Program-made: the position numbers and the translations under genes
Notes under the pieces: generated by a model
What the model saw: the letters and a program-made list of their open reading frames with translations, nothing else
Databases searched by the model: none
Told to the model about the DNA's origin: nothing
Source of the DNA: Mucilaginibacter sp. PAMB04168
GTDB taxonomy: Bacteria; Bacteroidota; Bacteroidia; Sphingobacteriales; Sphingobacteriaceae
Reading direction: 5' to 3'
Assembly (NCBI RefSeq): GCF_039634365.2
Contig: NZ_CP155079.2
Span: forward strand, 930,001 to 994,000
Length of the DNA stretch: 64,000 nt
In this document: one piece after another, positions 58,565 to 62,418 of the stretch
Layout: the number at the start of each line of letters is the position of its first letter
Position numbering within the stretch: position 1 is the stretch's first letter

Positions 58565-59356
58565 TTATTTAATGCTTTTGCGTTTTACAACAAAATAGCC
58601 GGCTACAAATATTACAGCAGCGGTAATCAGGCTTAGCTGTACTTCCTTGGTAAGCAGCTCAAATTGGGCCTGGCCGTTTAAAGTTTTGCTCCGGCCCATT
58701 ATAGATTGCAGCGGCTGTGAGTAGGGTATAGTGTAAGCATACTCCCAGTGTACGGTAGCTACCAATATAATACCCATAATGGCTCCTATAAAGCCAATAC
58801 CCATAGGTTTTAAAAAGTCCTTCCAAACCAGGCTCATCAAAAACTGGAGCGAAAGCGTGCCCAATGAAGCCAGGAAGAGCTTGCTGTAAATCTGGAACAA
58901 CTCTTTTTCCATATGGTAGCCGCTAAACTTAAGCTTTGGCTGTATGGCGCCCAGCAGGTTGCCAAATAAAATGGTAAACCCCGGGAAGAGCAAAAGTGAT
59001 ATCAGCAGCAACAGAACAGCATAAACAAACTTAGCGCTGTAAATTGACCATTTTTGTATAGGTAAGGTAAACAGCGTTTTCCAGGTATCAGACCGATGTT
59101 CAATGTTATTTACCGAGTAGGCTAAAAATATAATGAACATGGGTAACAGCAGCGAACCCATTACACCCATAGGTATGCCTGCAAAGTTGCCCCATACTTT
59201 TTCGGGGGTATATGCGGCCAGCTTATCAGCTTTTATGTAAAAGCCAATCGTAACTAAAAACATTAATATAAATGGCAGCAGTATGGCGCTCCAAAAGCCC
59301 AGCGTTTTACGGCTCTTATAAAATTCAGATTGCAGTGATAGTAAAAATCCTTTCAT
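58565..59356 (-). CDS. ABC-2 type transporter permease
   Basis: A 263-residue membrane subunit with six hydrophobic segments (about 18-40, 68-86, 108-132, 158-178, 188-208, 238-256). The N-terminus FLLSLQSEFYKSRKTLGFW is typical of ABC-2 permeases of the lantibiotic-immunity/bacitracin type. It begins 8 bp after the ATPase stop, forming an operon. Substrate unknown; the linked LytS/LytTR system suggests response to an envelope signal or peptide (inference). Confidence 0.9.
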   Translation of the reverse strand: MKGFLLSLQSEFYKSRKTLGFWSAILLPFILMFLVTIGFYIKADKLAAYTPEKVWGNFAGIPMGVMGSLLLPMFIIFLAYSVNNIEHRSDTWKTLFTLPIQKWSIYSAKFVYAVLLLLISLLLFPGFTILFGNLLGAIQPKLKFSGYHMEKELFQIYSKLFLASLGTLSLQFLMSLVWKDFLKPMGIGFIGAIMGIILVATVHWEYAYTIPYSQPLQSIMGRSKTLNGQAQFELLTKEVQLSLITAAVIFVAGYFVVKRKSIK

Positions 59357-59364
59357 GGCTCAGG

Positions 59365-60264
59365 TTAGGCTTTTTGGGTTATGTTCAAAAACAGTTCTTC
59401 CAGGTCTTTTTGTATTTTACCAATACTGTAAACCTTGTGGCCATTATGGTGCAGGCTGGCATTAATAGCTGCAGTATCTTCTTTTGATGAGAAAGGTAGC
59501 GTTAAATAGGTATCGGTTACGTGAGTAATCTCATAGCCTTGGCTCTTGAGGTAATTGGCAGCATCAGCGGTTTCGGTGGTTTCGACCTGCACAACCGGCT
59601 GGCTTAGGTTTTCCAGGTCTTGTATACTACCCTGAAACATCATGGCGCCATCGTTAATAATACCCACGTGGGTAGCCATACGCTCAATTTCGGCTAGTAA
59701 GTGGCTCGATACAAAAACGGTTTTGTTATGCTCTTTGGTTAGTTTAACCAATAGCTCACGTATTTCAATAATGCCGTTAGGGTCAAGTCCGTTAGTTGGC
59801 TCATCCAGTATGAGTAGTTTAGGGTCGGCCAGCATAGCCAGGGCAATACCCAGCCGTTGTTTCATACCCAGCGAGTAGTTGCCGGCCTTTTTATGCGCGG
59901 CATCGTTAAGATGAACCAGGGCCAGCATATCATTGGCACGGTTAGCCGGAACCTGCAGCAGGCGGGCGCGGTTAATAAGGTTCTCTTTACCGGTAAGATG
60001 AGCGTATATAGCAGGCTGCTCAATAAGCGAACCCACTTGCGAGAGTATCTTGATGCGGTTGCTTTGCAGCTCCTGCCCAAAAATATGAATGCTGCCCTCT
60101 TGTATTTGTAACAAGCTGAGCAGCAATTTTATAGTTGTTGTTTTACCCGCCCCGTTAGGGCCTAGGAAGCCAAATATGCTGCCTTCGGGTACTTGTAATG
60201 ATAATGATTTTACAACAGGCTGTTTGCCAAAGTAAAAGTTCAAATCCTGTGTTTGAATTACCAT
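59365..60264 (-). CDS. ABC transporter ATP-binding protein
   Basis: A 299-residue ATPase. The ATG at 60264 is preferred over a TTG eight codons upstream. Walker A GPNGAGKTTT, signature NYSLGMKQRLGIALAM, Walker B LLILDEPTNGLDP, and switch His in VFVSSHLLAEIE. The C-terminal about 80 residues form the extra domain common in BcrA-type ATPases. Its ATG overlaps by 7 bp the end of a small membrane-protein gene, suggesting translational coupling. It works with the permease at 58565. Confidence 0.95.
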   Translation of the reverse strand: MVIQTQDLNFYFGKQPVVKSLSLQVPEGSIFGFLGPNGAGKTTTIKLLLSLLQIQEGSIHIFGQELQSNRIKILSQVGSLIEQPAIYAHLTGKENLINRARLLQVPANRANDMLALVHLNDAAHKKAGNYSLGMKQRLGIALAMLADPKLLILDEPTNGLDPNGIIEIRELLVKLTKEHNKTVFVSSHLLAEIERMATHVGIINDGAMMFQGSIQDLENLSQPVVQVETTETADAANYLKSQGYEITHVTDTYLTLPFSSKEDTAAINASLHHNGHKVYSIGKIQKDLEELFLNITQKA

Positions 60265-60473
60265 GCTTTTTCGGTTGATACAGCGCAAACAACTTTAACT
60301 AAACGAACCCCTTTTGTAAATAAAGAAGTGGTTTGTTTAACTGATGCTATGCTGTTATCACCGTTTAAGCTTTTAGCGTGCTCAAACTGGTAACCTACAC
60401 CCAGTACCAAAGCAAATAGTACAGGCAACATTAACAGTATAAAGGGATTCAGGTTTGATAATAACTTTTTCAT
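60258..60473 (-). CDS. Small single-pass membrane protein leading the ABC operon
   Basis: A 71-residue protein from the ATG at 60473. One hydrophobic segment (about 10-30, PFILLMLPVLFALVLGVGY) is followed by a hydrophilic tail of about 40 residues. Its stop overlaps the ATPase start, and its 5' side holds the LytTR-like repeats, so it is the first gene of the operon. No family recognised. A role as a small regulator or accessory subunit of the transporter is speculation. Confidence 0.6.
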   Translation of the reverse strand: MKKLLSNLNPFILLMLPVLFALVLGVGYQFEHAKSLNGDNSIASVKQTTSLFTKGVRLVKVVCAVSTEKAW

Positions 60474-60532
60474 TGTGACTGATTTGATGATACAAAGTAA
60501 ATTCAAAAAAACAACCTGCTAAACTAATTTAG

Positions 60533-60608
60533 ACCAACTGCTGAATATTATAGATGAACTGCCCTTTCTATCTACCAACCAGTTCATCGATAATTATAGG
60601 CTGTTTAT
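60533..60608. promoter_or_regulatory. Four LytTR-like 9-mers in two 21-bp-phased pairs
   Basis: Minus strand: GCAGTTCAT (60554-60562) and GCAGTTGGT (60533-60541) separated by 12 bases. Plus strand: CCAGTTCAT (60579-60587) and GCTGTTTAT (60600-60608) also separated by 12 bases. They fit the published LytTR pattern of 9-bp direct repeats at 7 or 8 of 9 positions. One pair faces the ABC operon and the other the LytS/LytTR genes. Confidence 0.6.
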
Positions 60609-60674
60609 CGGCAAATTGCCAGCATGTATATAAATAAGCAGGTAGCTTTACCGCTTTAACTATATATTAGGGCA

Positions 60675-61688
60675 ATGAAAAAAAGCTGGCAAATCTTCTG
60701 GCATTCCTTTTTTTGGATAAGCGTCATCTCATTCTTTATGTATATAGCGCACACCAACGCTAAAATAAAGATGGTTGACCTGCTGGTTACGTTTGTAGGT
60801 TATGGCCTTATTAATATTGGCCTGTTTTACTCTAATTACCTGTTATTTATACCCAATTACCTGAACAATAAGCGGTATGGCAGGTACCTGCTTATGCTGC
60901 TTGTAACAGTTTTGGCAGTTGGGTTTATTAAATATGGCTTGGGGCGCATATTTCATGAGCATATACTTACAGGCCGGAACGGCAAAACCATTAGTTTTAT
61001 ATCCTACTACATCAGCGCTTGTTTTACCAGTGTTATATTTGTGCTGTTAAGCTTGCTGCTGCATTTTACAGTCGATTGGTTTTTGAACGAGCGCATACAG
61101 CGAGATTTGGAAAACCAACGCCTTCAGGCCGAACTGGCATTGCTAAAGTCGCAAATCAACCCGCATTTCTTGTTCAACTCTTTAAACAGTATATACTCAC
61201 TAGCCTACCAACGGGCCGAAAACACCCCCGAGGCTATCCTGAAGCTTTCGGAAATTATGCGTTACATGCTGTACGAGTGTAATGATAACAAGGTTGATTT
61301 GGCTAATGAGCTGCAGTACCTGCAAAATTTTATCGATCTGCAAAAGATTCGTTTCGGCGACAACTCTTATGTAAACTTTGAGGTAGATGGTATTATTACC
61401 AACCAGCGCATAGTGCCTTTGCTGCTTATATCGTTTATTGAAAATGCATTTAAACACGGCGTAGCCAATGATCCGGCAGCACCCATACAGCTAAAAATTA
61501 CGGTAGATGACGGTCACCTCGACTTTTATATGCACAATAAAAAGCATTTGCATAATCGCGATGCAGCCGGTGGTATTGGCTTAAACAATGTAAAGCGCCG
61601 TTTAAAATTGCTGTACCCAAACCAGTATCATTTAAATATTAATGATACTGCCGACACCTATACTTGTGAATTATCATTAATTTTATAA
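60675..61688 (+). CDS. LytS-family sensor histidine kinase
   Basis: A 337-residue kinase with four transmembrane helices (about 10-28, 35-58, 70-92, 110-130) and no large extracellular domain. The His_kinase box is SQINPHFLFNSLNSIYSLAY with phospho-accepting His164. The ATPase shows SFIENAFKHGV (N box) and GGIGLNNVKRRL (G box). The response regulator starts one base after the stop. Intramembrane sensing of envelope stress or of the state of the adjacent ABC transporter is likely (inference). Confidence 0.95.
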   Translation: MKKSWQIFWHSFFWISVISFFMYIAHTNAKIKMVDLLVTFVGYGLINIGLFYSNYLLFIPNYLNNKRYGRYLLMLLVTVLAVGFIKYGLGRIFHEHILTGRNGKTISFISYYISACFTSVIFVLLSLLLHFTVDWFLNERIQRDLENQRLQAELALLKSQINPHFLFNSLNSIYSLAYQRAENTPEAILKLSEIMRYMLYECNDNKVDLANELQYLQNFIDLQKIRFGDNSYVNFEVDGIITNQRIVPLLLISFIENAFKHGVANDPAAPIQLKITVDDGHLDFYMHNKKHLHNRDAAGGIGLNNVKRRLKLLYPNQYHLNINDTADTYTCELSLIL

Positions 61689-61689
61689 C

Positions 61690-62418
61690 ATGATCCGATG
61701 TCTGGTTGTTGATGATGAGCCTTTGGCTCTGCACGTTGTAGAAGACTACATTTCAAAAATTCCGTTTTTGCAATTAGTTAAGGCTACCACCAGTGCTATC
61801 GAAGCACTTACCCTGGTGCAGGATGGCGGCATTGATCTGGTTTTTTTGGATGTGCAGATGCCCGAGCTTACCGGCATTCAGTTTCTGCGTATATCAAACG
61901 GTAAAGCCCGTGTTATTTTAACCACTGCCTACCCGCAATATGCCCTGCAAGGTTATGAGCTGGATGCTGCCGACTACTTGTTAAAACCCATTGCCTTTGA
62001 TCGTTTTTACAAAGCGGCTCAAAAAGTGCATGCTGTTATGTTTCCCTCCAATAAGCCGGTTGAAAAGGAGGAGGCACCCCAGCCGCAGTCTGATATATCG
62101 AACGATTTTATTTTTGTGAAAACTGAGCATAAAATTCAGAAAGTATATTTGAACAATATTCTTTTTATTGAAGGCTTAAAAGATTATATATCCATATTTA
62201 CGCCGGCTGAACGTATTATTACGCTACAGAATATGAAAAAGGTGGAGGATGCCCTGCCCGAGCGCCATTTCATTCGCGTGCACCGCTCGTATATTGTTGC
62301 CCTTAATAAGATAGACAGTATCGAGCGTAGCCGCATCTTCATTGGCGACAAAATTATTCCCATAGGTGATACCTACCGCGACGAGTTTTTCAGAATGGTA
62401 GAGGAAAAGAATATTTGA
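61690..62418 (+). CDS. LytTR family response regulator
   Basis: A 242-residue DNA-binding response regulator. Receiver domain (about 1-115) with the acidic pocket VVDDEP, phospho-acceptor Asp54 (VFLDVQMPE), and Lys in DYLLKPIAFDRF. LytTR domain (about 135-238) with FVKTEHKIQKVYLNNILFIE, then FIRVHRSYIVALNKI and IPIGDTYRDEF. It is the only response regulator in the window and is the partner of the kinase at 60675. It probably binds the repeats at 60533-60608. Confidence 0.96.
   Translation: MIRCLVVDDEPLALHVVEDYISKIPFLQLVKATTSAIEALTLVQDGGIDLVFLDVQMPELTGIQFLRISNGKARVILTTAYPQYALQGYELDAADYLLKPIAFDRFYKAAQKVHAVMFPSNKPVEKEEAPQPQSDISNDFIFVKTEHKIQKVYLNNILFIEGLKDYISIFTPAERIITLQNMKKVEDALPERHFIRVHRSYIVALNKIDSIERSRIFIGDKIIPIGDTYRDEFFRMVEEKNI

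Follow-up and report, generated by a model that had tools for sequence, protein, structure and literature searches.

An ABC transporter operon and a LytS/LytTR two-component operon of Mucilaginibacter sp. PAMB04168 are transcribed away from each other, and the intergenic region between them carries two inverted pairs of LytTR-like boxes. This arrangement raises the question of which protein binds the boxes, which genes they serve, and whether the two pairs act separately or together. The window referred to below is the whole stretch of DNA analyzed, 64,000 nucleotides of contig NZ_CP155079.2, and all coordinates without a locus label are window positions. The original prediction was a closed circuit in which the two-component system controls itself and a transporter with a small membrane protein, with one pair of boxes directed to each operon.

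Four LytTR-type boxes between two divergent operons

The features of the locus are as follows (coordinates, strand, description).

58565..59356, minus strand: ABC-2 type permease (PF12730)
59365..60264, minus strand: ABC ATPase gene (PF00005), its start overlapping the end of the small gene
60258..60473, minus strand: 71-aa single-pass membrane protein with the motif [SN]PF[LI][LM]LLxPV, predicted conserved primary target, no Pfam match above cut-off
60493..60500, minus strand: probable -7 element TTACTTTG of the small-protein promoter, placed by the TTTG offset across orthologous promoters
60519..60524, minus strand: probable -33 element GTTTAG of the small-protein promoter, placed by the TTT offsets across orthologous promoters
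60530..60562, minus strand: LytTR box pair of the small-protein/ABC promoter, 12-bp half-sites GCAGTTCATCTA and GCAGTTGGTCTA, 21 bp start to start
60579..60611, plus strand: second LytTR box pair, upstream of the kinase, half-sites CCAGTTCATCGA and GCTGTTTATCGG, inverted relative to the minus pair
60663..60670, plus strand: probable -7 element TATATTAG of the kinase promoter, placed by the TAnnTT[TA] offsets across loci
60675..61688, plus strand: membrane histidine kinase of LytS type, H164 in NPHFLFN (PF06580, E 2e-27)
61690..62418, plus strand: response regulator with a receiver (D54) and a LytTR DNA-binding domain (PF00072, PF04397), proposed binder of the boxes

Reading frames and Pfam matches agree with the predicted layout, in which a small-protein/ABC operon on the minus strand diverges from a kinase–regulator operon on the plus strand. 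The regulator is a LytTR response regulator (PF00072 at 62.9 bits, cut-off 30.2; PF04397 at 64.5 bits, cut-off 22.6; D54 present). The kinase is of LytS type (PF06580 at 95.5 bits, cut-off 25.2), with hydrophobic stretches within residues 7–140 in a simple hydropathy scan, and its H164 and ENAFKHG region are conserved across eight sequences from eight genera. Both pairs of 9-mers are present letter for letter as predicted, GCAGTTCAT-N12-GCAGTTGGT on the minus strand at 60562–60533 and CCAGTTCAT-N12-GCTGTTTAT on the plus strand at 60579–60608.

Conservation of the boxes and their spacing

Kinase relatives were traced in 151 Sphingobacteriaceae genomes, 147 of which gave a match. Counts rest on 130 loci from 130 genomes, 50 from the window's genus and 80 from 14 other genera; a stretch without a kinase (L049, G009), same-genome duplicate loci and the paralogue locus L044 were left out before counting. 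A pair was called present at 12 bits or more with a weight matrix, a score reached by 4 of 2422 control windows. Regulator orthologues at 76% identity or more occurred in the window's own genome and 36 congeneric genomes.

LytTR operators are described as pairs of 9-bp direct repeats 10–13 bp apart (PMC11347149, excerpt), and the spacing in the window is 12 bp. The departures of the boxes from the consensus [TA][AC][CA]GTTN[AG][TG] are as originally reported: position 1 is G or C in all four 9-mers and the last one also deviates at position 3, with positions 4–9 fitting throughout. Iterative modelling of 480 half-sites from the family loci gave the 12-bp consensus [CG]CNGTT[CG][AG]TC[TG]A, in tandem at 21 bp. 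Since C and G dominate position 1 in most of these half-sites as well, the first-base "deviation" is the family's own rule.

When the orthologous intergenic regions were aligned and scored, the predicted LytTR-type boxes proved to be conserved in a strict 21-bp phase. With a matrix from the other genera, 91 of 100 Mucilaginibacter strand-loci reached at least 16 bits at spacing 21, and at most 10 of 100 did so at any one other spacing from 12 to 35. Aligned within the genus, the boxes stand out as islands of conservation within a drifting spacer. With a matrix trained only on other genera, the two pairs were the top two sites of the 64-kb window, at 27.3 and 19.8 bits, and the next site scored 11.7. 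The largest score in 60 Markov-random windows was 22.0 bits (mean maximum 12.2), so the minus pair alone exceeds all of them and the plus pair alone does not. Given the out-of-genus ranking and the control windows, chance was rejected as the origin of the boxes. A composite pattern allowing up to three mismatches, itself written from the two sites, matched the window seven times versus 2.0 expected in shuffles, with only the two pairs exact.

A wider regulon in the own genome was considered and rejected in scans that used patterns and not the matrix. The 33-base consensus had no other place at one mismatch or fewer, and 16 matches versus 19 for the reversed-pattern control at three or fewer; a looser pattern was exact only at the two pairs and had 18 matches versus 19 in the control at one mismatch or fewer. 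No second target is claimed, because neither scan gave an excess over the control.

The conserved predicted target is a small membrane protein

A profile search placed the small gene divergent from the kinase in 117 of the 130 loci, and it was present somewhere in 114 of the 151 family genomes. The small-side pair reached 12 bits in 115 of the 117 loci with the gene and in none of the 13 kinase upstream regions without it, a contrast that is weak alone because the small gene left only three to four times and its DNA left too. These independent losses beside the kinase on the tree are too few for a significant sign test. The kinase-side pair was retained in 7 of the 13 loci. Exceptions to the presence of the pair were L116 (G097, g40), which has kinase, regulator and small gene and neither pair, and L090, which at 10.0 bits falls below the threshold.

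An ABC ATPase (at least 45% identity) stood behind the small gene in 61 of the 117 linked loci and was absent from 43, the remaining 13 being unjudged owing to a short stretch. The 43 ABC-free loci comprise all judged loci of g25, g27, g38, g40, g41 and g42, together with 6 of 14 in g44, 1 of 19 in g37 and 4 of 37 in Mucilaginibacter. The transporter was rejected as the core target, with 43 of 104 judged linked loci having the small gene and no ABC genes behind it. The expected control of a transporter together with a small membrane protein is upheld for the small protein, which is conserved, and not for the ABC genes, which are optional. The conserved target is thus predicted to be the small membrane protein.

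The protein has one hydrophobic span (peak residues 8–26) and a conserved [SN]PF..LL.P motif. It had no Pfam match above cut-off, the best being DUF4013 (E 0.0033, 17.7 bits versus a cut-off of 26.9). Across 295 genomes of the class, matches better than 1e-9 were all within the family, and the weaker ones mostly contained stops or lay inside long frames. A role as a mere kinase accessory is weakened by six g29 genomes that keep the small protein without a kinase or regulator orthologue; for this reason, the protein is probably an effector in its own right and not a kinase accessory alone.

Second small-protein copies in g26 (L294, L310, L311; G061, G086, G102) are divergent in sequence and carry no boxes. 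They follow an ABC-permease-like gene, a short GntR-like regulator and a 239–260 aa protein (names assigned by eye), and are a second link of the small-protein family to transport-like genes.

The predicted operator stays with the small gene

Most of the 13 genomes without a small gene beside the kinase still have one at another place, G002 among them. Up to 350 bp upstream of small genes were scanned with the unchanged matrix at loci outside the training set. Where the small gene lies apart from the kinase and a regulator orthologue is present, a pair was found in 14 of 14 genomes (13.4 to 26.1 bits), beginning 87–96 bp before the small-gene ATG and at the same distance to the -33/-7 promoter as in linked loci. 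This unlinked set consists of G065, G090, G106, G070, G093, G079, G099, G113, G123, G133, G142, G179, the second copy of G147, and G002. It excludes fragment L309 and the second small copies of G061, G086, G102 and G142, at which no pair was found. G184 was also left out (small-gene pair 26.7 bits), since its kinase and small gene each lie within 310 bp of a contig end and may be neighbours. Behind the small gene of G002 and G147 come ABC ATPase and permease genes, with the G002 permease truncated at the end of the stretch.

The pair was found in none of the six g29 genomes (L301–L306; best score 1.3), in which relatives of the regulator are 28–32% identical or missing. These genomes are reduced (1.0–1.8 Mb) and 60–99% complete, and the missing regulator is less sure in the three with completeness below 90% (60, 87 and 88). 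G076 has no close regulator (46% identity) and no pair. In G068 (L307) the small gene and the regulator gene, of which 63 residues precede the contig end, diverge directly and flank the pair. G081 (L308) has the same arrangement and keeps the pair; its regulator carries stops, and the search for a kinase found none. In three g26 genomes the pairs at the small gene are weak (13.9–16.8 bits), and the regulators are only 42–57% identical, possibly non-orthologues. Across these genomes, the operator appears to stay with the small gene when the gene moves away from the kinase.

In g35 (L284/L334 of G070 and L285/L335 of G093), kinase, regulator and small gene are at three places, and both strong pairs remain only at the small gene.

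The two pairs are spaced in steps of about one helical turn

Both pairs reached 12 bits in 114 of the 130 loci, so that pairs stand at both divergent promoters, as in agr. Start-to-start distances between the pairs in these 114 linked loci were 38–39 bp (2 loci), 48–50 (49), 58–60 (17), 68–71 (45) and 79 (1), and no intermediate distances or half-turn offsets occurred among them. All 114 lie within 1.5 bp of 39, 49, 59.5, 69.5 or 79.5, and a drift of 1–2 bp is tolerated. The best period was 10.2 bp with a resultant length of 0.97 over 13 genus clusters, which are not fully independent, against 0 of 20,000 uniform draws with the period scanned. The steps of about 10 bp imply helical phasing.

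Within Mucilaginibacter, the distance is 49 bp in 42 of the 49 loci with both pairs and 48–50 bp in all 49. The two g27 distances (38 and 39) come from picking the best among overlapping half-sites. On the kinase tree, a quick FastTree with many weak branches, the exact distance changed at least 31 times and the class 7 times, or 4 times after merging 21-bp register shifts. A figure of 1e-4 that depends on hand-listed switch sizes carries no weight here. The 49 and 39 classes may be the 70 and 60 classes minus one 21-bp half-site register, as in Mucilaginibacter the distance from the pair to the kinase -7 box exceeds that of other genera by 21 bp, one such register.

An inverted second pair of at least 12 bits also occurs at seven of the 14 unlinked small genes (G065, G090, G106, G070, G093, G147 and G002), with pair-to-pair distances of 59, 59, 68, 69, 69, 70 and 49 bp. 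At these seven the next upstream gene runs in the same direction and there is no start of a divergent frame of at least 90 aa. The second pair therefore does not belong to the kinase alone. It has been lost at the other seven (six g43 genomes and G179). The view that one pair belongs to each operon describes the window, where a pair precedes each operon, and is too simple for the unlinked genes, at half of which the second pair persists.

On the simplest reading, dimers on both pairs would have to keep one relative DNA face, via direct contact or within one bent complex; AgrA is described as bending DNA (PMC4227749, excerpt). We infer that the four boxes are probably one composite operator of the adjacent LytTR regulator, which would activate the small gene and feed back on the kinase–regulator operon, and we give this reading a probability of about 0.78. 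In the proposed sequence of events, the kinase would sense a signal and phosphorylate the regulator at D54, and each pair of 12-bp half-sites would then take up one dimer of the phosphorylated regulator. From its position just upstream of the -33 element, the pair at 60530–60562 would activate the small gene together with the ABC exporter that is co-transcribed with it here. The inverted pair at 60579–60611, in helical register with the first, would assist it and, where a kinase is divergent, would also drive kinase–regulator transcription in a feedback loop.

The strongest alternative, which we consider rather unlikely, is that the pairs work independently, one per divergent operon with no interplay, and that their close spacing reflects a short intergenic region. 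This fits the single pair before each operon in the window and most relatives, the kinases without an adjacent small gene that keep a kinase-side pair of at least 12 bits (three of three loci in g30, three of five in g43), and the six g43 small genes that retain only their own pair. It accounts poorly, however, for the second pair at seven of 14 unlinked small genes that have no divergent gene, and for the ladder of distances, which has stayed free of intermediates in 114 loci despite the many changes of exact distance on the tree.

The self-control foreseen for the regulator would, under the composite-operator reading, act through the kinase-side boxes. It appears common and not universal: neither pair is left at the G002 kinase, and there is no pair at the regulator genes of G070 and G093 (g35), which stand apart. 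Since G002 and some others no longer have a kinase-side pair, the feedback seems dispensable. In five Mucilaginibacter loci (L046, L047, L048, L050 and L051), kinase and regulator lie about 0.5 to 4.6 kb apart, and the kinase boxes remain.

Position of the pairs relative to the promoters

As predicted, a pair lies upstream of each operon, one just before the -33/-7 elements of the small-protein/ABC operon and the other before the kinase–regulator operon. Counting from the pair start, 113 of 115 small-gene promoters have TTTG, the end of the Bacteroidota -7 box, at exactly offset 66, and TTT of the -33 element is at offset 38 in 105 of 115 and at 39 in 103 of 115. Between the minus pair and the -33 element are 5 bp if the box is counted as 12 bp, or 8 bp if it is counted as 9 bp. 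On the kinase side, TAnnTT[TA] occurs at offset 83 (29 loci) or 84 (16 loci) in the 49 Mucilaginibacter loci, and a -7-like box in the other genera gave 61 matches at offsets 61–63 among 73 loci. In the window 4 nt separate the kinase -7 box from the ATG, which predicts a leaderless or nearly leaderless kinase mRNA, and the layout is similar in other genera (e.g., L085, L087 and L093).

This geometry bears on whether the regulator represses through the boxes instead of activating, which we regard as improbable. CoxC, a LytTR protein, offers a precedent, as it represses from boxes overlapping -35 (PMC11347149, excerpt), and in Mucilaginibacter the outer plus half-site would lie over the -33 region if the TATATAA that follows the plus pair is a -7 element, as it could be. 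The small-promoter pair, however, lies 5 or 8 bp before -33, the activator position of the LytTR systems treated in the excerpted part of PMC6193735.

The adjacent regulator as the likely binder

Another LytTR protein of the genome might be the chief binder of the boxes in place of the product of the adjacent gene, an option that we rate slightly lower still. The genome has 24 matches to the regulator, itself included, a paralogous kinase locus has a similar direct repeat, and the weak g26 pairs persist without a clear orthologue. Against another binder, presence of the pair follows the orthologue of the adjacent regulator, being absent in 6 of 6 g29 genomes without it and present at 14 of 14 unlinked small genes with it, and in G068 the regulator and small gene adjoin with the pair between them.

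The paralogue locus (L044, G000) is a second kinase–regulator copy with 36% and 49–52% identity. Some 110 bp upstream of its kinase is a similar direct-repeat pair (L044 5145–5177, 16.2 bits), and each paralogous LytTR system may therefore have an operator of its own.

Chance, composition or an RNA structure acting without a DNA-bound protein has a negligible probability: the inverted pairs could fold into an RNA hairpin, but the boxes are conserved across genera at a fixed promoter offset, one pair persists without its inverted partner at seven of 14 unlinked small genes, and a search of Rfam for an RNA element returned only sub-threshold microRNA matches, one of them over the boxes.

Comparison with known LytTR systems

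In Bacillus subtilis, the LytTR two-component system NatK-NatR lies beside the ABC-2 type exporter operon natAB, which is under its control. To our knowledge, no small membrane protein is encoded by the first gene at natAB, and, unlike natAB, the ABC genes are optional at the locus described here.

The closest parallel in promoter arrangement is the agr P2–P3 region of Staphylococcus aureus, where AgrA binds direct repeats upstream of two divergent promoters, one of them that of its own operon (PMC4227749, excerpt). The locus here likewise has LytTR-type repeats at two divergent promoters, one for the regulator's own operon, with binding predicted. The two differ in that the other agr target is a regulatory RNA, which is activated, and SarA sites lie between the agr repeats (same excerpt), whereas here the other target would be a small membrane protein, either alone or together with an ABC exporter, and the pairs lie on a ladder of about 10 bp.

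The LRS of Streptococcus mutans has 9-bp direct repeats about 12 bp apart that end 4–11 bp (mostly 8–11) before the promoter, and LRS-like operons of Bacteroides have 11-bp repeats, 11 bp apart, with a promoter of the form TGTA/TGTG-19 bp-TATCTTTG (PMC6193735, excerpt), a layout that the small-gene promoter resembles. LRS and the present locus share the repeats and their spacing, feedback (predicted here), a membrane protein and sometimes ABC genes nearby. As described in the same excerpt, however, LRS are set apart from two-component systems, and the gene for their membrane protein, an inhibitor, is part of the regulator's operon. The present locus has a kinase and a receiver domain and is not an LRS by that description; its small protein has no Pfam match to the LRS domains DUF3021 and DUF2154, and the small gene lies on the strand opposite the regulator and is kept in genomes that lack the regulator.

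LytTR boxes in pairs with a 12-bp gap are already known, as are feedback and divergent pairs. As far as the open-licence PMC literature shows, the target family, the mobile four-box operator and the helical ladder are new, and no paper joining LytTR with Mucilaginibacter or LytTR with Pedobacter was found there. The locus is thus a LytTR operator of known type in a new composite architecture, with an undescribed target family.

A possible regulatory module of the Sphingobacteriaceae

Taking the comparisons together, we lean, with modest confidence, towards a module of the Sphingobacteriaceae in which a LytTR two-component system has as its conserved target an undescribed single-pass membrane protein of about 55–71 aa. 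In such a module, the regulator would bind cooperatively to a four-box operator whose two inverted pairs have to share one helical face, the operator would move with the small gene, and ABC genes would have been added downstream in some lineages.

For one LytTR system, this gives a base-level prediction of the operator with its promoter across a bacterial family, and the genomes in which the small gene has moved away, along with those that lack the regulator, form a natural test set for it. The helical-phasing rule is testable, and an uncharacterized small membrane protein is indicated as the main output of the system.
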